Shown piece by piece: positions 1 to 11,526 of a DNA stretch of 24,446 bases. Under the pieces are notes generated by a model. It was not told the origin of the DNA and made no database searches. It saw only the letters and a list, made by a program, of their open reading frames with translations. The translations under genes were made by a program, and so were the position numbers. The number at the start of each line of letters is the position of its first letter. The stretch's first letter is position 1. The DNA is from a virus: positions 1 through 24,446 of the IMG/VR virus record IMGVR_UViG_3300028418_000027. One strand, written 5' to 3'.

Positions 1-220
1 ACCATAAAGGATTCTGATGATAAGACTCATTTGATGTTCTATGATGATGTGGGCATAAAGGTATGACCTCATAGTTAGATGCTCGTTTACCCATCATTCC
101 TTTCTTAATATGATGCAGTTCTGCTGGTGTATCATAGAAACCGAGCTTTCGACAAGCAATACAACCTAATTCTGCAACTTTTTGCATATGTTTCTTCTCA
201 GCCAATGTTTTTGACTTCAT
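1..220 (-). CDS. HNH endonuclease, N-terminal part (runs off the left end)
   Basis: Partial minus-strand gene; 73 residues are visible from an ATG at 220-218, which overlaps the portal stop codon as TAATG. Visible motifs are a CxxC pair (C20, C23), an AELHHI segment (H36, H37) and a CPHHH segment (C56, H58-H60). This is the zinc-binding and catalytic layout of small HNH nucleases, with some resemblance to the Ref/DUF968 type. HNH proteins encoded beside terminase and portal in HK97-like phages often assist genome cleavage during packaging, so a packaging role is inferred from position. The C-terminus is outside the window, so a missing catalytic residue cannot be excluded. Confidence 0.8.
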   Translation of the reverse strand, partial: MKSKTLAEKKHMQKVAELGCIACRKLGFYDTPAELHHIKKGMMGKRASNYEVIPLCPHHHRTSNESYHQNPLW

Positions 221-2268
221 TATAACTTTCTTAAAGTTTTAAACCTATGTCCAACTATTGTATCTGTCGGCTCATCTCCACGATAAACCTTAATCAAACA
301 AGCTGGATTATCTTCTGTAGCATTTAAAGTGAAACTTGTTTTAGGTACAGCTAGTTTACCTGACCTAACTATTCTTGTTATTTTCCCTTTGGCTCTACCA
401 CCTGATGAATCCCAAGAAACCATATCGCCTACTTTTAAAGCATCTGATTCTGCTTTACTTTCTCTTTCTTTCATTATTTGGTTTCTTTTAGATTTTGACC
501 AACTAAAACCAGCATCACCACCCCAAAGCAACCATGCTATTTTACCAGCACTTGGATATCCCTCAGAACCTGAATTAAATCCACGACCTTGCTTATCTAC
601 TTCGTGTCTACTGAAGAAACTATACATTCTTAAAACAGTATCAGGAGATAGTCTTTGTTTATTAACTAACTGATTGGCTCTCGTGACTCCTACTTGTGTG
701 CCACCACGATTAAATTCTTTTCTTAACTCTAATCCTCTTTTCGCATTGTTAGCCATAGTATCTGTCGGCACTAATTTCAAATCGCTTAATGCTTTACTAT
801 CTGCTAACAAAGATTCATACTCCTCATGAGTTTCACAAGGCATATAAACTGTCTGACCATCTTCTGTATGTGAATGAATACCAACACAACCTATTTCTTC
901 GGCTCTTTCTTGTGCCTCTTCTTCAGTAGTAAAGGTATCGACATCAACTGCCTCTTTTTTACCATAAGCTAACTCAAAGTCTTTTTCATTTCCCTCTGCA
1001 TCTACAGGTTGGTCATTATCCTGAACACTAGAGGCATCTACTTCGCCAATAGGGAATAAGTTGCTTGGTATATATAACTCATCAGCACCCTCTATTTCTT
1101 CAAGTCCTAACTTCTCTCTTGCCTCATTACGAGTCATAATACCATTCTGTACTGCTTGTGAAACATTGAGATAAACTTGTTTAGTCTTTTCTGCCATAGC
1201 TGGTATGCTGGTTAAATCATATTCAATTCTAATATCGCCATTATAAAGAGGCGATAAGAACTCATTTAAGTCAGATTGAACTCTAGTCAATAGAGGAATT
1301 ACTGTTTCTTCATATAATGCTAATTTTGCAGTTTCCATATTGCTGTAAGTATTAGCCTCAGGAATACCAATTAATTGTGCTGGAACTCCGAAACATAATG
1401 CTATTTCCCTTGCAGATAAGTTAAGAAGTTCTAAGAAGTCCATGTCTTTTGGGTTTAATCCTAATTGTTTATATTCAAAATTACCCTCTAGCAACATGGG
1501 TCTGCCTGAATTTGAACTACCTTGAAATCTCATTTCTAAATCTTCTAACAGTCTTGCTCTTTGGTCATCTGTTAAAGTAGCAGACATTCCTGTTTCATCT
1601 TTTGGCTCAAACTTTAACATACCACTTGGAGTGCAACCATTTTTTAATAATGCAACATTATGTAAACCAGCAAGATTATGTTGGTCAATATTGTAAGCAC
1701 TTGCCAATATTGGACTTAATCCATAAAAGTCATCTAAAGGATTCCATAATTTAATTTGTTTTAATTGTGAACGACCATTGTCTTGGTCTACAGGATATTC
1801 TTTAATAATTTGACCATCTACTAAGTAGCAATAATAATCAGGAATCATTGAAGAACTTGATTTAATTTTAATTCTGTCAGGTCTTAATAAATATAATTCT
1901 CTTGGTGGTGTATCGTTTTCTGTATCTCTTAAAAGATATGAGTTTCCTGAAATAAGTAAGTAAGAATATAATGAGGCAAAGTATTCACCACCACTTTGCA
2001 AGGGATTGGGTCTTTCTAGTAGAGATATTAGCTCATGGTTTTCTAATTCAATATCGCCATCAAATACTTTTATTTTTACTGCACTTGCTGAATCAGCAAT
2101 TAATTTTACACATCTATGTACGATTGCATTGTCTTGATAACCCTCTTTGGCATAATCTTTATATCTTCTAGCAGACTTACCCATGTATGCCTCTAGTCGA
2201 TTAATCATAACTGTTGGCGATTCTTTTTTCTGAATACTTCCTTTAAAAAATTTATCAAATATACCCAT
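220..2268 (-). CDS. HK97-family portal protein with a long multi-module C-terminal extension
   Basis: 682 residues. Residues 1 to about 410 read as an HK97-type portal, including the helical CFGVPAQLIGIP stretch near 292-303 and the typical N-MTRNEAREKLGL segment near 379-390. The portal ring occupies one capsid vertex and is the DNA channel and head-tail junction. The remaining 270 residues are unusual. About 445-488 is a TEEEAQERAEEIG..HSH....YMPC module. About 498-600 is a basic helical module with PTDTMANNAKRGLELR and HEVDKQGRGF. About 612-682 has the GDMVSW...G..KGKI...ATEDNPA pattern of HVA1/DUF2945 tudor-like SH3 domains. Family portals are usually 380-500 residues. It lies 8 nt downstream of the large terminase in one operon. 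Confidence 0.88.
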   Translation of the reverse strand: MGIFDKFFKGSIQKKESPTVMINRLEAYMGKSARRYKDYAKEGYQDNAIVHRCVKLIADSASAVKIKVFDGDIELENHELISLLERPNPLQSGGEYFASLYSYLLISGNSYLLRDTENDTPPRELYLLRPDRIKIKSSSSMIPDYYCYLVDGQIIKEYPVDQDNGRSQLKQIKLWNPLDDFYGLSPILASAYNIDQHNLAGLHNVALLKNGCTPSGMLKFEPKDETGMSATLTDDQRARLLEDLEMRFQGSSNSGRPMLLEGNFEYKQLGLNPKDMDFLELLNLSAREIALCFGVPAQLIGIPEANTYSNMETAKLALYEETVIPLLTRVQSDLNEFLSPLYNGDIRIEYDLTSIPAMAEKTKQVYLNVSQAVQNGIMTRNEAREKLGLEEIEGADELYIPSNLFPIGEVDASSVQDNDQPVDAEGNEKDFELAYGKKEAVDVDTFTTEEEAQERAEEIGCVGIHSHTEDGQTVYMPCETHEEYESLLADSKALSDLKLVPTDTMANNAKRGLELRKEFNRGGTQVGVTRANQLVNKQRLSPDTVLRMYSFFSRHEVDKQGRGFNSGSEGYPSAGKIAWLLWGGDAGFSWSKSKRNQIMKERESKAESDALKVGDMVSWDSSGGRAKGKITRIVRSGKLAVPKTSFTLNATEDNPACLIKVYRGDEPTDTIVGHRFKTLRKL

Positions 2269-2276
2269 TACAACTC

Positions 2277-3566
2277 CTAACTAATCTTAAATATTGCTTG
2301 ACCACTATTCTGTAGTGATGTTATTGCCCAAACTAAGGCATCAACCCTATCATCATGATATTGTACCCCATTTCCTGTAAACTGGCACATCTGTTCTTCT
2401 AAATCCTTGAATACTCCTACATGGTGAATCCGATTCTGCTCATACAGTGCTGATATCGGCTCGGCTCTAACAATTTTTCCTCTACTTGCTCTAACACTTG
2501 TATAAGGAATTGATTGATTCTGTGTTCTTAATAATCTCTCAATCAAATCGCCACCATTATTAACCTCTGCTACAATCCTATCACATTCATATTGTTTATA
2601 AAGTGATATGGCTTTCTTAACCCATACATCAGGCGAACTCACTTGGCTACCATCATGCAATATGTAGTAATGATTATTAATATCACGACCAGCAACTATC
2701 ATTCCTGTTTCATCTGAGTTCTCGTTACTGGTAACTGCTGGGTCAATAGCAACAACAATTCTTTGTAAGTCTATTGGATAGTTTGTTAATCTATTTTCTT
2801 CAATGTTTTTATAATTAAATAATGCACCCTCAATATCTTCTAGGATTTCTGCATAGAGTTCTTGTCTACCCATGCGAGTACCCTCATATCTTTCTTTTAA
2901 CATTTGGATAGATGATTCTGCAAGGTTGTCAATGTTCTCAAATGTTGAGCCTGTGATTAACTTGGTATCACTTCTTTTAGCAAGAGTCTTTATTATCTTG
3001 GTCGGTCTAGGTGTTGTGGTAATAATGCACTTAGGATTTTGACCTAATCTTAATGCCATCATTAAGTTATCGAAAGTTTCTGTGTATCTCCAAGAGGCTA
3101 ACTCATCACACCAAACCCTATGAAACTGAACACCACGAAGTCTGTCAGGCTCTATTGCTGGGAATCCAATTATCTTTGAACCATTATAGAAATGTATTTC
3201 ATTATCTGATTTATTATATCCAATGTTACTGAGTAATCTTTTATCAATTATATTTATAAAACCTGAATCACCAGCAAATACAACTCTTTTTAAATCTCCA
3301 TATGTTGGTGCGACTACACCACAAACTACATTATCATTTCTTAAACAGTATTCTACAATGTCGTATGCACCTGTTAAGGTTTTACCCCAACCACGACCAG
3401 CAAGGAATAAATGTATATTAAATTCATTAGTGTCCTCTACTAATTGTGTTGGTCTTGCTTTATCGTACCAATCAATGAGTAGATTCGTTGCTATCTGATT
3501 TAATGGATTTAGTTTGTCGAAGTGATTTGAGCAAACTCTCGAATCGTTCTTTTTCATCTGATACAT
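2277..3566 (-). CDS. terL: Terminase large subunit (packaging ATPase-nuclease)
   Basis: 429 residues, a normal TerL length. The ATPase half has Walker A AGRGWGKT (56-63), Walker B VWCDE (151-155) and coupling motif TTTPRP (183-188). The RNase H-like nuclease half has candidate metal ligands D275 (AIDPA), E334 (VAEVNNGGD) and D406/D409 (HDDRVDAL). It pumps DNA through the portal and cuts it. A GGAG ribosome-binding site lies just upstream of the ATG at 3566, which supports this start even though it lies 95 nt inside the upstream small-terminase gene. No internal in-frame start before the ATPase domain looks better. Confidence 0.95.
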   Translation of the reverse strand: MYQMKKNDSRVCSNHFDKLNPLNQIATNLLIDWYDKARPTQLVEDTNEFNIHLFLAGRGWGKTLTGAYDIVEYCLRNDNVVCGVVAPTYGDLKRVVFAGDSGFINIIDKRLLSNIGYNKSDNEIHFYNGSKIIGFPAIEPDRLRGVQFHRVWCDELASWRYTETFDNLMMALRLGQNPKCIITTTPRPTKIIKTLAKRSDTKLITGSTFENIDNLAESSIQMLKERYEGTRMGRQELYAEILEDIEGALFNYKNIEENRLTNYPIDLQRIVVAIDPAVTSNENSDETGMIVAGRDINNHYYILHDGSQVSSPDVWVKKAISLYKQYECDRIVAEVNNGGDLIERLLRTQNQSIPYTSVRASRGKIVRAEPISALYEQNRIHHVGVFKDLEEQMCQFTGNGVQYHDDRVDALVWAITSLQNSGQAIFKIS

Positions 3567-3855
3567 TGTTTATCTCCACAACATCAGTTTCTTTCCAACC
3601 AGCTTGAGTTTTAAGCCAAAAAATAGATGCAGTTAAAGCCTCTCTACCTGTTCCTGTTGCCATACGATATAAATTATTAGCGATAGTTGCTGTTGATGAT
3701 GCCTTGCCTAGTTTTAATTCAGAATCATAGTATTTGTATAAGGTAGGTTTTGATATACCAGCTATGGAACAAATCATGTCATGAGTTATACCAATCCCTG
3801 ATAGTTGTTTAACCATCTTTGCTATCTCATCTGTTTTCTTTACTATTTTTGGCAT
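3472..3855 (-). CDS. terS: Terminase small subunit (DNA-recognition, helix-turn-helix)
   Basis: About 127 residues from the ATG at 3855-3853 (MPKIVKK...). The frame is open to an ATG at 3894, but the 13 extra residues are hydrophobic and run through promoter-like AT sequence, so the shorter start is preferred. The helix-turn-helix GITHDMICSIAGISKPTLYKYY near residues 23-43 is the form seen in small terminases that recognise the packaging site. A helical middle and a polar tail follow, as expected for an oligomerising TerS. It is the first gene of the packaging operon and overlaps terL by 95 nt in another frame. A TACTCT/AGAGTA inverted repeat covers the region just upstream of its start. Confidence 0.8.
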   Translation of the reverse strand: MPKIVKKTDEIAKMVKQLSGIGITHDMICSIAGISKPTLYKYYDSELKLGKASSTATIANNLYRMATGTGREALTASIFWLKTQAGWKETDVVEINNVSDEKERFESLLKSLRQTKSIKSDSNESTH

Positions 3856-3858
3856 ATA

Positions 3859-3876
3859 TACTCTTTTTATAGAGTA
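3859..3876 (-). promoter_or_regulatory. Inverted repeat over the small-terminase translation start region
   Basis: TACTCT at 3859-3864 and AGAGTA at 3871-3876 form a perfect 6-bp inverted repeat with a 6-nt spacer. On the minus-strand transcript the downstream arm contains the purine-rich AAGAG that would serve as ribosome-binding site for the ATG at 3855. A hairpin could therefore mask it, or the repeat could be a repressor site. It may be chance in such AT-rich DNA. Confidence 0.3.
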
Positions 3877-3917
3877 AAAATAAAATAAAAGCAAGATATT
3901 TAATCAAATCACTTTAT

Positions 3918-3950
3918 TATATTATTAGTATAATATATACTTATAGTATA
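3918..3950 (+). promoter_or_regulatory. Promoter/operator of the isolated gene at 3970
   Basis: The palindrome TATACT-TAT-AGTATA lies at 3936-3950, with one further pairing base on each side. An overlapping copy with one mismatch (TATATT-ATT-AGTATA) lies at 3918-3932. A perfect TATAAT at 3929-3934 can serve as the -10 box for the plus-strand gene starting 20 bp after the palindrome. The same palindrome recurs at 11815, 12323, 12346 and 17175, always just upstream of a small gene, which argues for a phage operator. Confidence 0.65.
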
Positions 3951-3969
3951 TTAAATAAATGAGGGTATT

Positions 3970-4170
3970 ATGAAACCATTAAACAAATCTCACAACTGGG
4001 AACTTAGGGTAGAAAAAAGCAATATTGAATGTGATTTGAAATCTTTCTTAGGTAATCATAATTGTAGTAAATCAAGCGATTTAGAAACAGCAGACAAAGT
4101 TCGATATATGATGATGAAAGAGAGAGTATCAGCTATTGAAACTAAATTTAAAAAAGATAATTATAAATAA
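3970..4170 (+). CDS. Small protein of unknown function, isolated plus-strand gene
   Basis: 66 residues, charged and soluble, with no recognised domain, signal peptide or membrane segment. A GAGGG ribosome-binding site lies just upstream of the ATG. It sits alone on the plus strand between two minus-strand operons and is convergent with the glycosyltransferase gene, 2 nt away. It has its own promoter and TATACT-N3-AGTATA operator. That is the layout of a moron gene, an extra gene with an independent promoter inserted between phage modules. Morons often act in the lysogen or as early anti-host proteins, but nothing in the sequence says which applies here. Confidence 0.7.
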   Translation: MKPLNKSHNWELRVEKSNIECDLKSFLGNHNCSKSSDLETADKVRYMMMKERVSAIETKFKKDNYK

Positions 4171-4172
4171 AT

Positions 4173-4946
4173 TTATTGTTTAATTCTTTTTCTTTGGTCA
4201 GTCAACCTGATTTGTGCAAATTTACCTTTCCTAGCATTATTTATTTTGCAAAACATTGGATAAGTTTCAAGCATATACTGTGCTGAATCTTTTTCAGAAT
4301 CAGGTGTTCTATATTCTTGTATGCCACCTTTTTCTGTATATATCTTGGTTTTAGGTGCTAAATAATTAAATCTAATTATACCACCATCTTTTTTATAATA
4401 TTTGATGGTTCTCTCGTAATCTTCTTTTGTATGATATCTTTCATTGAGAACATATGCTTTATCCTCATGTCGATTAACCCACCCATAAAAACAAGCAATA
4501 ACAAATTTCAAATTAAATGAGATGGTCGTTTTCATAAAAAATGGATTAAATGATGCATTGATTCCCCATAAATCTAATTTATGCTCAGTACATAATGAAA
4601 AAGCTTGTTCACCTAGTCCGACCAAATCTGTCACAGGGAAAGTTTTTTTGTCATTCATTTTGCTTTCAAGACTCATGATATCATCATCAATACCCATAAC
4701 AAATTGACCTACTGGGTAATAATCTATCATAAAATTTCTTTGAGCATTGATACTATTGTTATTTGCTACAATAATATTCAAAGGATAATTTTTTAATTTA
4801 TCAGTATATTCTTCAAGCTCATCTGCTCTGCTTAAAAAAACATCAACATTTTTAAAATCAATATTAGTAGTAGATAGATATTTTATACTTTTATTTAACA
4901 ATGTATCTGACCTACCACAACTGGGTATCGCTATTCTAAAATTCAT
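4173..4946 (-). CDS. GT-A-type glycosyltransferase linked to the TET/JBP dioxygenase
   Basis: 257 residues. The opening IAIPSCGR (5-12) and the acidic GIDDDI (85-90) match the nucleotide-sugar and metal-binding sites of GT-A fold glycosyltransferases. A WGINASFNPFFMK segment (127-139) and EDYERTIKYY (175-184) follow, the latter at the usual place for an acceptor or catalytic acidic region. There is no signal peptide, so it acts in the cytoplasm. Its ATG overlaps the dioxygenase stop (ATGA), so the two are translationally coupled. Comparative work (Iyer, Aravind and colleagues) described phage TET/JBP-associated glycosyltransferases, TAGT, proposed to attach sugar to hydroxymethylated bases in DNA. 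Assignment to TAGT rests on linkage and motifs, so family membership is likely but not certain. Confidence 0.75.
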   Translation of the reverse strand: MNFRIAIPSCGRSDTLLNKSIKYLSTTNIDFKNVDVFLSRADELEEYTDKLKNYPLNIIVANNNSINAQRNFMIDYYPVGQFVMGIDDDIMSLESKMNDKKTFPVTDLVGLGEQAFSLCTEHKLDLWGINASFNPFFMKTTISFNLKFVIACFYGWVNRHEDKAYVLNERYHTKEDYERTIKYYKKDGGIIRFNYLAPKTKIYTEKGGIQEYRTPDSEKDSAQYMLETYPMFCKINNARKGKFAQIRLTDQRKRIKQ

Positions 4947-5869
4947 TTATCTCTCTCTAAGGCTATGTTTAATTCTTCTTTGGCACTTCCACATTTAATC
5001 ATTTTTTCTCTTACATAACATACTGCTGAGATTCTTTCACAATCACCATGTTTTACTATCTCAGTATTTCCATGAATCTCATGAACATCAAAGAACCCAA
5101 CATCAGTATTTCTTACATTTAAACCAATTCCATATTTAGGGATAACAGTATAAGCACCATCATATCTTCCTTTTTCTAAGACTGCTAAATTACCAATGCC
5201 ATCTTTAAAATCTCCTTTATCAGTATGACAAGCAGTTCTGAAGTTATTATTCAGGGTAACTGTCGTGAATGCTGTATTGTCTATTTTAAAATCTTTGTGT
5301 ATTTTTTCCCAGTATGTTTTTTGCAAATTATATTTTTCAGGAACAAATGTTTCATAAAGTTTAGAAATATATCTAATGTATGGCAATGTTTGTTTATACT
5401 CATCAAAAAATCTTTGGCTAAACTCTGTCATTCTACAATATGGAATCCTAGCATATCTGTCCATATAACCTATCACAGATGAATTTACTGCTATTGCTTT
5501 AGGCGAATTAGATAAAGTGCCATCTTTTTTTAAAGGTATAAATCTCCCACCACTAAGAACTTTACCAACATACATACCATTAATTTTCATGCCCACTTTC
5601 ATTTCATCAGTTTGACCTGATGCCATTCCTCTGTTATTAGATTCCCTGAGTGATGCTTTTCTCAGAAATGGAAATGCTTTTTTACAAAGTTCAAATGGAA
5701 CTATTTTGTTCAGATAGACTGCAACAATATCTCCTTTCTCATTCTTGAAAGTAGTATCATCTTTAGGAATAGGATATTTTATATAAGACTCATCAAGATA
5801 TGTGCCTTTTATCTCATCTAATTCTTCTTTTGTTTTATGCTCTTTAACTGTTATTACTTTCATATTCAT
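4943..5869 (-). CDS. TET/JBP-family Fe(II)/2-oxoglutarate DNA-base dioxygenase
   Basis: 308 residues. The catalytic core has H215-x-D217 (ACHTDKGD), a distal histidine in DVHEIHGN (H263 or more likely H266) and R279 (ERISAVCY) for 2-oxoglutarate. Upstream are SNNRGMASGQ (78-87) and a RIPYCRMTEF segment (141-150), both typical of TET/JBP proteins. TET enzymes oxidise 5-methylcytosine and JBP enzymes oxidise thymine, so the product would be a hydroxymethyl base that the next gene could glycosylate. The gene overlaps the ParB-like gene by 26 nt and the glycosyltransferase by 4 nt. Neither ATG 5869 nor the ATG two codons on has a strong ribosome-binding site, which suggests coupling to the upstream gene. 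Confidence 0.85.
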   Translation of the reverse strand: MNMKVITVKEHKTKEELDEIKGTYLDESYIKYPIPKDDTTFKNEKGDIVAVYLNKIVPFELCKKAFPFLRKASLRESNNRGMASGQTDEMKVGMKINGMYVGKVLSGGRFIPLKKDGTLSNSPKAIAVNSSVIGYMDRYARIPYCRMTEFSQRFFDEYKQTLPYIRYISKLYETFVPEKYNLQKTYWEKIHKDFKIDNTAFTTVTLNNNFRTACHTDKGDFKDGIGNLAVLEKGRYDGAYTVIPKYGIGLNVRNTDVGFFDVHEIHGNTEIVKHGDCERISAVCYVREKMIKCGSAKEELNIALERDK

Positions 5870-6449
5870 TTTTAACAGCTGTCATAACTGCATCTGTTAT
5901 ATTTTCAGAATTATAAACCTGTTTCAATTTTTCTATTTGTGTTCTAAATATTGGCTCTGTTTCTGAACTAAGAAATAATTGTATCATTCTTACTTGTGAT
6001 GGTAAAAAATCATCTCCCTCACCTGTGAACTCATTATCAACAGCACTCATTGTTTCGTTTAACTCTGCAACATTAGAAAAATTTAATTCTTTAGAATCAA
6101 ATCCCCAGTCGACCAAATTATCAACATCAAAAAAGTTTGCAAGGTTATCAAAATTCCATTGACCTTGATTTTTATTAAGTCTTACATTCAATTCTTTCTC
6201 TTGTTTTTCATCAAGATTAACTTCTACACAGGGCGCAGTTTTCAAACCCATATCAATAATAACTTGTAGTCTTTGATGACCACCAACCAATATGTTTTTC
6301 CTGTTTGGGTGTATATTAACTATCAATGGGTCTACAAGACCGAATTTATCAACACTTTCTTTGATTTCAGCGAACTGTTTCTTGGTTATTTCTCTTGGAT
6401 TGTAATTAGCTGGTATGATGTCAGCTACATTTTTTTCTACTACTTTCAT
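5844..6449 (-). CDS. ParB/sulfiredoxin-like nuclease-fold protein
   Basis: 201 residues. The N-terminal half is a ParB/Srx domain: NPRE at 17-20, a LVDPLIV strand, LVGGHQRL (54-61) and RLNKNQGQWNFDNLANFF (90-107), followed by LVDWGFD. The C-terminal 60 residues are helical and charged. In phages this domain is often linked to DNA methylases, TET/JBP enzymes and other base-modification genes, where it is thought to work with them on DNA or nucleotides; its exact chemistry is unknown. There is no ParA partner here, so a partition role is unlikely. It follows the helicase gene in the same direction and leads directly into the dioxygenase gene. Confidence 0.85.
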   Translation of the reverse strand: MKVVEKNVADIIPANYNPREITKKQFAEIKESVDKFGLVDPLIVNIHPNRKNILVGGHQRLQVIIDMGLKTAPCVEVNLDEKQEKELNVRLNKNQGQWNFDNLANFFDVDNLVDWGFDSKELNFSNVAELNETMSAVDNEFTGEGDDFLPSQVRMIQLFLSSETEPIFRTQIEKLKQVYNSENITDAVMTAVKNEYESNNS

Positions 6450-6457
6450 ATTGACTC

Positions 6458-7312
6458 CTAAAATTTATTCATTAATGAATCATAACACTTTGTGTCATTA
6501 TTCCAACGAAGTGTTATTTCTCCTATGTTTCCTTGAACATCTACTTCCCTAACTTTAGCAACTCTGACCTTAGTTTGACCTCTCTCAAAATCCCTTGTGA
6601 CTATAACACCGATATCAGCTTTATTATTCCAATGACTTGAACCACTCACATCATACAAAGACTTGACCTCAAATAATCCATCAGCATTTCTGATTTGTTT
6701 TGTAGGGTGTGCAACCATGAAACTGATTACATCATTCTCACGATTGAATCTTTTAATCTTAGAAATAAGAACTGATATATGCTCATCTTCTCTTAAATTG
6801 GCTCTAGCTGGATTTATTTCATTATATGGGTCAGTGACAATACCATCTATTTGATAATTATCTACACAGTATTTGGCTCTATCTAATATCCAATCTATAT
6901 CAGGTGAATCACCTTTTTTATCTATGAAATAAAAATGCTCATTGATAAAACTAACTGCCTCTTGAACTTCATCTATCGTACATCTATTCTGAAACATAGC
7001 ATCAAAAGGTTTATGCACATACTTTTCTATGAGTCTTTTAAGATTGACTGCCAAAGAATGTTCAGGCGAATAAATCATGTATTTAAAACCATGCTCTTTA
7101 GCAGTTCTCATTATGATATCGTATGTCAAACTAGACTTACCACAGTTTGGTGTTCCAGTCATCAATATGAAACTTGGTTTCACTAACTGCATGATAGGGT
7201 CTAAATCTTTGAACCCTGTCGAATATCTTTTGCAAGTCTTTCCCTCATACAGTTCCCATAAATCATCATACAAACTTTTGGCAGTATGAATACCATCAAT
7301 TTTTTCATTCAT
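6458..7312 (-). CDS. DnaB-type replicative helicase (RecA-like ATPase core)
   Basis: 284 residues, corresponding to the C-terminal ATPase half of DnaB/gp4-like helicases; there is no N-terminal primase-binding domain. Walker A is GTPNCGKS (53-60), Walker B is GIVTDPYN (157-164), the sensor is VAHPTK (200-205) and the SGSSHWNNKADIGVIVTR segment (223-240) matches the arginine-finger region of the hexamer. It would unwind the phage fork, with the small HTH initiator encoded upstream acting like lambda O/P. A 39-bp promoter/operator-like element lies just before its start, so it may start a transcription unit that also carries the modification genes. No phage DNA polymerase is visible, so host polymerase is probably used. 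Confidence 0.9.
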   Translation of the reverse strand: MNEKIDGIHTAKSLYDDLWELYEGKTCKRYSTGFKDLDPIMQLVKPSFILMTGTPNCGKSSLTYDIIMRTAKEHGFKYMIYSPEHSLAVNLKRLIEKYVHKPFDAMFQNRCTIDEVQEAVSFINEHFYFIDKKGDSPDIDWILDRAKYCVDNYQIDGIVTDPYNEINPARANLREDEHISVLISKIKRFNRENDVISFMVAHPTKQIRNADGLFEVKSLYDVSGSSHWNNKADIGVIVTRDFERGQTKVRVAKVREVDVQGNIGEITLRWNNDTKCYDSLMNKF

Positions 7313-10935: not shown

Positions 10936-11526
10936 ATGTCTTTAACAATTCTAAAAACTAGTTTTTTTCAATCACATGGTAATCCTGATATGGATAAGAT
11001 ACCAAACTATGGTGTTGTCAAACTTCCTATCAATCGTGCAGATTTAGTTTCAGCAAGAGTGGAATTATCGAGTGGTGTTGGAGTTCAACAAGATGCTAAA
11101 GTTAATTATGGTGTTGATGATAAACTCACTAGAAAAGTCAAGATGTGGAGAATACCTTTAGATTCTAAGATAGGTGGTTTGTTTCATGTTTATGCAGTTG
11201 AGCTTAATAAAATATTTAATTATAGAATATCAGCTATACAAGATATTCAATATTTAGAATATAGTGTTGGAGATTTTTATAAAACTCATACCGATATAAA
11301 TTGTGAGATAGGCTCTACTAGAAAAATATCAATCTCTTGGATATTAGATGATAATTTTGAGGGTGGAGAATTAAAAATAATGAGTGGTGGTGAAGAAGTA
11401 GTTATAAAAAATAATGATAATGAATTAGTAGCATTTACAAGTTTTATGAATCATTGTGTCACACCAGTGACCAAAGGAACTCGTAAAGTTTTAGTTTGCT
11501 GGGTAAATGGCGAAAGCTGGAGATAA
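10936..11526 (+). CDS. Prolyl-4-hydroxylase-like Fe(II)/2-oxoglutarate oxygenase
   Basis: 196 residues. The double-stranded beta-helix core shows H118-x-D120 (YKTHTDI), ISISWILDDNFEGGEL (131-146), distal H173 (MNHCVTPV) and a basic residue R183 in TKGTRKVLVCWV, the 2-oxoglutarate anchor position. The pattern fits the P4H/PKHD hydroxylases common in marine phages. The substrate may be a protein side chain or a nucleic acid and cannot be told from the sequence. It is a second, clearly different 2OG enzyme in this genome, besides the TET/JBP protein. An AGGAG ribosome-binding site precedes the ATG, and the next gene starts 4 nt after the stop. Confidence 0.85.
   Translation: MSLTILKTSFFQSHGNPDMDKIPNYGVVKLPINRADLVSARVELSSGVGVQQDAKVNYGVDDKLTRKVKMWRIPLDSKIGGLFHVYAVELNKIFNYRISAIQDIQYLEYSVGDFYKTHTDINCEIGSTRKISISWILDDNFEGGELKIMSGGEEVVIKNNDNELVAFTSFMNHCVTPVTKGTRKVLVCWVNGESWR

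Follow-up and report, generated by a model that had tools for sequence, protein, structure and literature searches.

Which base in phage DNA is the target of a cassette that pairs an oxidizing enzyme with a sugar-transferring one is the question raised by virus record IMGVR_UViG_3300028418_000027 (IMG/VR). The stretch analyzed, hereafter the window, is the entire viral contig of 24,446 bases, from a marine phage, and its minus strand carries three overlapping genes for a ParB-domain protein, a TET/JBP dioxygenase (TET) and a TET-associated glycosyltransferase (TAGT). An original prediction had read these genes, at 4173-6449, as a system in which a 5-methyl base is oxidized and then joined to a sugar that would shield the genome from restriction. 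The cassette is very probably one for DNA hypermodification. As for its substrate, the genomic evidence leans towards thymine rather than 5-methylcytosine (5mC), and the evidence from the substrate pocket is mixed. Hypermodification of the phage DNA by ParB, TET and TAGT acting together, with thymine as the likelier base, is favored with moderate confidence as the best explanation of the whole.

Protein Families and Catalytic Residues

The three open reading frames (ORFs) were found where they had been described (Table 1), with overlaps of 26 nt between ParB and TET and of 4 nt between TET and TAGT. When the window is compared with its relatives, the ratio of nonsynonymous to synonymous substitution rates (dN/dS) is 0.03-0.08 for each of the three genes, which shows that all are maintained under purifying selection. 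Profile searches, in which all three proteins scored above the curated Pfam cut-offs, and structure prediction both place the two enzymes in the TET/JBP and TET-associated glycosyltransferase families, not in unrelated ones. The TET matches PF12851 (Tet_JBP) with an E-value of 1.5e-25 (89.7 bits; cut-off 34.9), and its HxD...H...R site, previously described as apparently complete, is intact, H215-x-D217, H266 and R279 being invariant in 27 relatives. The AlphaFold2 model (predicted local distance difference test score, pLDDT, of 91) has a double-stranded beta-helix fold like that of DNA-bound TETs, and its best matches among solved structures are NgTet1-5mC-DNA (E 1.6e-11), CcTet, TET2 and CMD1. 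The moderate TM-scores against NgTet1 (0.57/0.65) and the identity of 14% indicate a shared fold and family, not close kinship. Solved structures yielded no relative when searched by sequence alone; the fold search did find relatives.

The TAGT matches PF20691 (E 6.2e-13; 49.6 bits, cut-off 27.5) and, among PHROGs, phrog_842, beta-glucosyl-HMC-alpha-glucosyltransferase (1.1e-10). The predicted IPSCGR/DDD layout of a GT-A enzyme is borne out by P8, R12 and D87-D88-D89 (IDDD motif), which are invariant in 13 relatives, and by an AlphaFold2 model (pLDDT 84) whose fold matches are GT-A enzymes such as TarP and TarS. Because 2-oxoglutarate (2OG) oxygenases and GT-A enzymes form broad superfamilies, and TarP and TarS glycosylate wall teichoic acid, the TET/TAGT pair could conceivably modify RNA, protein or a cell-surface glycan instead of DNA. 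Such a target is very improbable, however, since the first 26 fold matches of the TET model are all TET-family DNA-base oxygenases, the position of the TAGT gene is occupied in other phages by an amino acid:DNA transferase (ADDT), and the partner ParB is related to DNA methyltransferases.

The assignment of the first gene to the ParB/Srx proteins also holds, with a match to PF02195 (ParB_N) at E 1.2e-7 (32.1 bits; cut-off 26.3). Its strongest PHROG matches are phrog_620, ParB-like (5e-32), and phrog_498, ParB-DNA methyltransferase (6e-32), and most of its best matches in sequenced phages bear the annotation DNA methyltransferase. A ParB domain is thus found with phage DNA-modifying enzymes in two arrangements, linked to methyltransferases and as the partner of TET. 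From the more than 570 TET relatives that an alignment search of viral contigs yielded, a set of 80 was retained. In every retained locus with sufficient sequence ahead of TET, 69 in all, the gene directly upstream is that for ParB; six other loci start within 520 bases of TET and do not enter this count. Since ParB domains are common in phages, the protein might instead be a neighbor linked to packaging or partition, with TET and TAGT alone acting together. This alternative appears unlikely, because ParB keeps its place although the genes past TET change, because it also precedes the divergent TETs of the phages Acadian and Altadena (with a small ORF between in Altadena), and because its nearest matches are parts of DNA methyltransferases. 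No ParA partner was seen among the annotated genes.

Several phage TETs (L184 813-1691, L025 7599-8507 and L028 3729-5165) bear the names queuine tRNA-ribosyltransferase or SNF2 DNA repair protein in public records, apparently through misannotation.

Proposed Pathway and Related Systems

By homology, the TET is predicted to be an Fe(II)/2OG dioxygenase that adds a hydroxyl to the 5-methyl group of a pyrimidine in the DNA of the phage itself. The ParB-domain protein would probably recruit it, together with the other modifying enzyme, to this DNA. On the hydroxymethyl group so formed, the TAGT would then place a sugar taken from a nucleotide-sugar of the host. The base is more likely to be thymine, converted to 5-hydroxymethyluracil (5hmU) and then to glycosyl-5hmU by chemistry like that of base J, than 5mC. 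Virion DNA would in this way carry a glycosylated base, and its sugar would be expected to stop restriction or CRISPR nucleases of the host. The order of oxidation and sugar transfer given in the original prediction is well supported by profiles, structure models and synteny in cultured phages.

TET/JBP-linked modification systems in phages were reportedly predicted by Iyer et al. in 2013. The ParB-TET-TAGT cassette is of a kind already known, and that of the window is a new member. Genes 1-6 of the Mycobacterium phage Acadian (NC_023701) encode ParB, TET, TAGT, a PIG-L deacetylase, TerS and TerL, in the same order and with the same placement of the terminase as in the window, and genes 60-64 of the Arthrobacter phage Altadena (OR521058) keep the order ParB, TET, TAGT, followed by PIG-L, away from the terminase. 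Both phages differ from the window in the additional deacetylase, in their actinobacterial hosts and in a highly divergent TET (Pfam 1e-4 to 3e-3), which has Leu/Ile at the position of R287. Because PIG-L deacetylases act on N-acetyl sugars, their presence beside TAGT fits sugar addition. In the Pelagibacter phage HTVC112P (MN698246; gp17-gp19), ParB and a TET 55% identical to that of the window are followed by an FkbM methyltransferase instead of TAGT, with the packaging genes a few genes on. In the Nonlabens phage P12024L (NC_018272; gp26-gp28), a 35.6-kb phage without a C5 methyltransferase, TAGT directly follows TET, but an N6/N4 DNA methylase comes next, no ParB is annotated directly before TET and the terminase is further off.

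Other systems share single steps with the proposed pathway. The five-gene system of the Rhodococcus phage Tonitrus, with ParB/TET/aGPT-Pplase2/kinase genes, was put forward in 2025 as possibly serving thymidine hypermodification (PMC11955845); by its authors' annotation, it has ParB and then a TET-like J-binding protein, as in the window, but it ends with aGPT-Pplase2 (ADDT) and a 5-hmU DNA kinase and has no glycosyltransferase. If thymine is the substrate, the pathway would work like that of kinetoplastid base J, in which JBP1/2 hydroxylate T and JGT adds the sugar (PMC8616854); the organisms and protein architectures differ, and the likeness is one of pathway. The 5mC systems consisting of a C5 methyltransferase and TET (Burke et al., 2021; here Melnitz and 49 contigs) share the TET-family hydroxylation step and differ in an adjacent HhaI-like methyltransferase, a separate TET clade and an Asp at the position of TET2 H1904. 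TAGT without alpha- or beta-GT was found in 288 of 753 phage genomes, for which novel transferases were suggested (2026; PMC13216743).

Source of the 5-Methyl Base

A TET that acts on 5mC needs a methyltransferase, whereas thymine is the sole 5-methylpyrimidine certain to be present. A second contig, G001 (35,694 bases), is 99.6-99.98% identical to the window over its length and carries the same cassette; because its ends overlap by about 496 bases (91% identity over 498 alignment columns), it can be closed to a genome of about 35.2 kb, although the assembly contains some strain mixing. No C5-cytosine methyltransferase (PF00145) was found in the window, in the closed genome G001 or in ten further related records, and none of the unassigned ORFs of G001 is an obvious methyltransferase. 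The same profile was absent from all 50 contigs surveyed of the clade to which the window TET belongs (6 to 54 kb, similar in size to those of the other clade) and from eight complete isolates, namely HTVC112P, P12024L, S-CBWM1, Cr30, DLP6, C48C1, Acadian and Altadena, whose TETs are not of the methyltransferase-linked type. In the divergent Melnitz-type clade, which served as a positive control, it was detected in 49 of 50 contigs, the exception being truncated beside TET. Nor was a thymidylate-synthase-type hydroxymethylase (PF00303) found in G001, G007, G010 or HTVC112P; a match of 40 residues in P12024L lies below the cut-off and was taken as chance. Hosts appear unreliable as a source of 5mC, because just 29 of 114 genomes of the genus Pelagibacter carry a C5 methyltransferase above the cut-off.

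The substrate pocket was compared in a register set by motif spacing from R279 and the TET2 chain, not by superposed structures. In the window TET, R279 opens the frame RISxVxYxR, which includes Y285 and R287 and corresponds to R-I-S-L-V-F-Y-Q-H in TET2, in which Y1902 and H1904 contact 5mC (PMC6424975). The position equivalent to H1904 is Arg in 81 of 81 window-type TETs and Asp in 56 of 56 methyltransferase-linked TETs. At the D+3 position (D220), equivalent by spacing to TET2 Asn1387 and NgTet1 Asp234, the residues bonded to the 5mC N4 amino group (PMC11040006), all 81 and all 56 have Asp. R287 could donate to O4 of thymine and D220 could accept N3-H; the Asp suits cytosine equally. The pocket evidence on the substrate is thus mixed. 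The division between methyltransferase-free and methyltransferase-linked TET clades, together with the pocket residue, is new as far as could be checked.

With the same cassette, the TET could instead oxidize 5mC made by a C5 methyltransferase of the host or of a co-infecting phage, and TAGT would glycosylate the resulting 5-hydroxymethylcytosine (5hmC), in which case the modification would be sparse and confined to host methylation sites. Several points weigh for this alternative or against thymine. The characterized phage TETs oxidize 5mC made by a C5 methyltransferase (Burke et al., 2021, cited in PMC12730594 and PMC11404850), T6 has a TAGT that acts on glucosylated hmC (PMC13216743), and D220 favors cytosine because the N4-contact residue of 5mC oxidases is retained. 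The presence of a methyltransferase changes just once on the TET tree, so that 0/50 against 49/50 represents one evolutionary event, not fifty. Nor is thymine chemistry proved by a kinase close to TET, because the kinase family also occurs in Melnitz phages that encode a C5 methyltransferase; nearby ADDT and kinase genes were accordingly withdrawn as proof. The 29 Pelagibacter genomes mentioned above show that the required enzyme does occur among potential hosts. On the other side, the phage would rely on an enzyme absent from most of the potential hosts tested, the TETs linked to a methyltransferase fall in a clade of their own whose pocket residue differs, and neither the 50 relatives nor any complete isolate with a window-type TET makes its own 5mC. 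Oxidation of host-made 5mC is considered less likely, and thymine is the likelier target. The latter is favored by the lack of a C5 methyltransferase and of a thymidylate-synthase-type hydroxymethylase, the scarcity of Pelagibacter methyltransferases, R287, the thymidine annotation given to the same ParB-TET-ADDT-kinase layout in Tonitrus and the fact that window-type TETs ahead of ADDT arrays interleave on the tree with those ahead of TAGT. If thymine is indeed the substrate, these TETs would be compact DNA thymine oxidases independent of any methyltransferase, and base-J-like or new bases would occur in widespread marine viruses. The base choice of a phage TET is directly testable in cultured phages, such as Acadian on M. 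smegmatis mc2 155 and HTVC112P on SAR11, and the enzymes form a set of candidate DNA-modifying tools.

In the Methylophilales phage Melnitz (L027 3803-7883), a C5 methyltransferase, TET, a 427-aa gene and a kinase related to those described below lie in a row, and this kinase family may also act on 5hmC. The 427-aa gene has no Pfam match, and ADDT is neither shown nor excluded there. In the Caulobacter phage Cr30 (L029 10436-11665 and L033), TET, ADDT, a kinase relative and a thymidylate synthase family gene occur together, and this phage may have two sources of 5hmU.

Exchange of the Gene behind TET

In many relative loci TerS and TerL come after the position occupied by TAGT in the window, which can be regarded as a slot between TET and TerS. 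The slot contains various TAGT subtypes, an FkbM methyltransferase, both of these, a lone P-loop kinase, an amidotransferase-GNAT-ADDT-kinase array, another ADDT-kinase array or a gene without a Pfam match. With slot classes taken from whichever reference gene matched best in blastp, and hence approximate, at least 17 changes of class are required on the tree of 55 slot-typed TETs (28 with shuffled labels), or 22 when TAGT subtypes are counted apart (32 with shuffled labels), which indicates some inheritance of the slot, yet frequent exchange. Slots differ even behind closely related TETs, as in pairs with 94% (L040/L041, two TAGT subtypes), 85% (TAGT and kinase) and 81% (ADDT and TAGT) identity. 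One exchange took place within the phage group of the window itself: L009 and L010 show 82-83% nucleotide identity around the slot, and the blastn similarity ends at 4950 and restarts at 3902/3896, which are the slot edges. Their replacement TAGT is an ORF of 254-258 aa with an IDDD motif and is absent from the blastp matches of the window TAGT at 1e-5. The extent of slot exchange is new as far as could be checked.

It is tentatively proposed that ParB-TET works, free of any methyltransferase, as a platform for the direct hydroxylation of thymine in phage DNA, behind which one to four swappable genes would let close phages decorate the same 5hmU with sugars, methyl, phosphate or amino acids. 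Such a modular system for outrunning host defenses could be common in marine phages. The slot offers a natural experiment, in which related TETs (76-94% identical) stand before different finishing enzymes.

Some slot contents merit separate mention. The FkbM methyltransferase stands alone, without an adjoining glycosyltransferase, in L043 (2376-3068), L053 (3604-4302) and L025 (8497-9195; HTVC112P), where it might methylate the hydroxymethyl base directly and give an unusual base. A P-loop kinase is the sole gene between TET and TerS in L046 (10818-11426), L059-L063 and L106 (10942-11475), which suggests a phosphorylated hydroxymethyl base as the end product. In L049 (3302-5530), L092 and L099, from marine phages, ParB-TET is followed by a multi-gene hypermodification array of glutamine amidotransferase, GNAT, ADDT and often a kinase, and in L085 a Dam methylase (PF05869) lies between TET and the amidotransferase-GNAT-ADDT array.

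Genome Context

Table 1. Positions in the window of the cassette genes, their key residues and adjoining features (HTH, helix-turn-helix).
Feature	Position	Strand	Basis
ParB_N-domain protein, 201 aa, first cassette gene	5844..6449	-	PF02195, phrog_620, phrog_498
TET/JBP 2OG/Fe(II) DNA-base dioxygenase, 308 aa	4943..5869	-	PF12851, fold matches
TET iron-binding HxD (H215, D217)	5219..5227	-	invariant in 27 relatives
TET D220 (D+3), equivalent by spacing to TET2 Asn1387/NgTet1 Asp234	5210..5212	-	clade counts
TET distal iron-binding His H266	5072..5074	-	invariant in 27 relatives
TET 2OG-binding Arg R279	5033..5035	-	invariant in 27 relatives; R-I-S-x-V-x-Y frame as in TET2
TET R287, equivalent by spacing to base-contacting TET2 H1904	5009..5011	-	clade counts, TET2 register
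TAGT, GT-A-fold glycosyltransferase, 257 aa, slot occupant	4173..4946	-	PF20691, phrog_842, fold matches
TAGT N-terminal I-P-S-C-G-R motif	4911..4928	-	P8, R12 invariant in 13 relatives
TAGT D87-D88-D89, nucleotide-sugar/metal motif	4680..4688	-	invariant in 13 relatives
Segment without nucleotide similarity to L009/L010, which have a different TAGT; holds small plus-strand ORF 3970-4170	3897..4949	.	blastn
Probable terminase small subunit (HTH), next minus-strand gene past slot	3472..3894	-	before TerL, weak HTH match, TerS-TerL after slot in relatives
Terminase large subunit	2277..3566	-	PF03237 8.5e-21, PF17289 1e-16
DnaB-like helicase, directly upstream of ParB, 8 bp gap, same strand	6458..7312	-	PF03796 9.1e-13

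Most of the remaining genes of G001 are assigned to head, tail, replication and recombination or are small unknowns. The nearest terminase is that of a Roseobacter phage (43%) and the nearest capsid that of a Rhizobium phage (46%), matches that suggest an alphaproteobacterial host; the GC content is 33%. A scan of bacterial genome contigs with the TET alignment gave no TET match and hence no host link by that route. Outside the cassette, the window encodes a second, unrelated 2OG-Fe(II) oxygenase (10936-11526, plus strand; PF13640, phrog_61) and a portal protein (220-2268, minus strand) with a C-terminal extension bearing DUF3721 and Hva1_TUDOR domains. A protein with an HlyC-like acyltransferase domain is encoded amid the tail genes of the closed genome G001 (L013 1665-2084), and gp46 in the tail module of HTVC112P has a similar annotation, that of an RTX toxin acyltransferase family protein.

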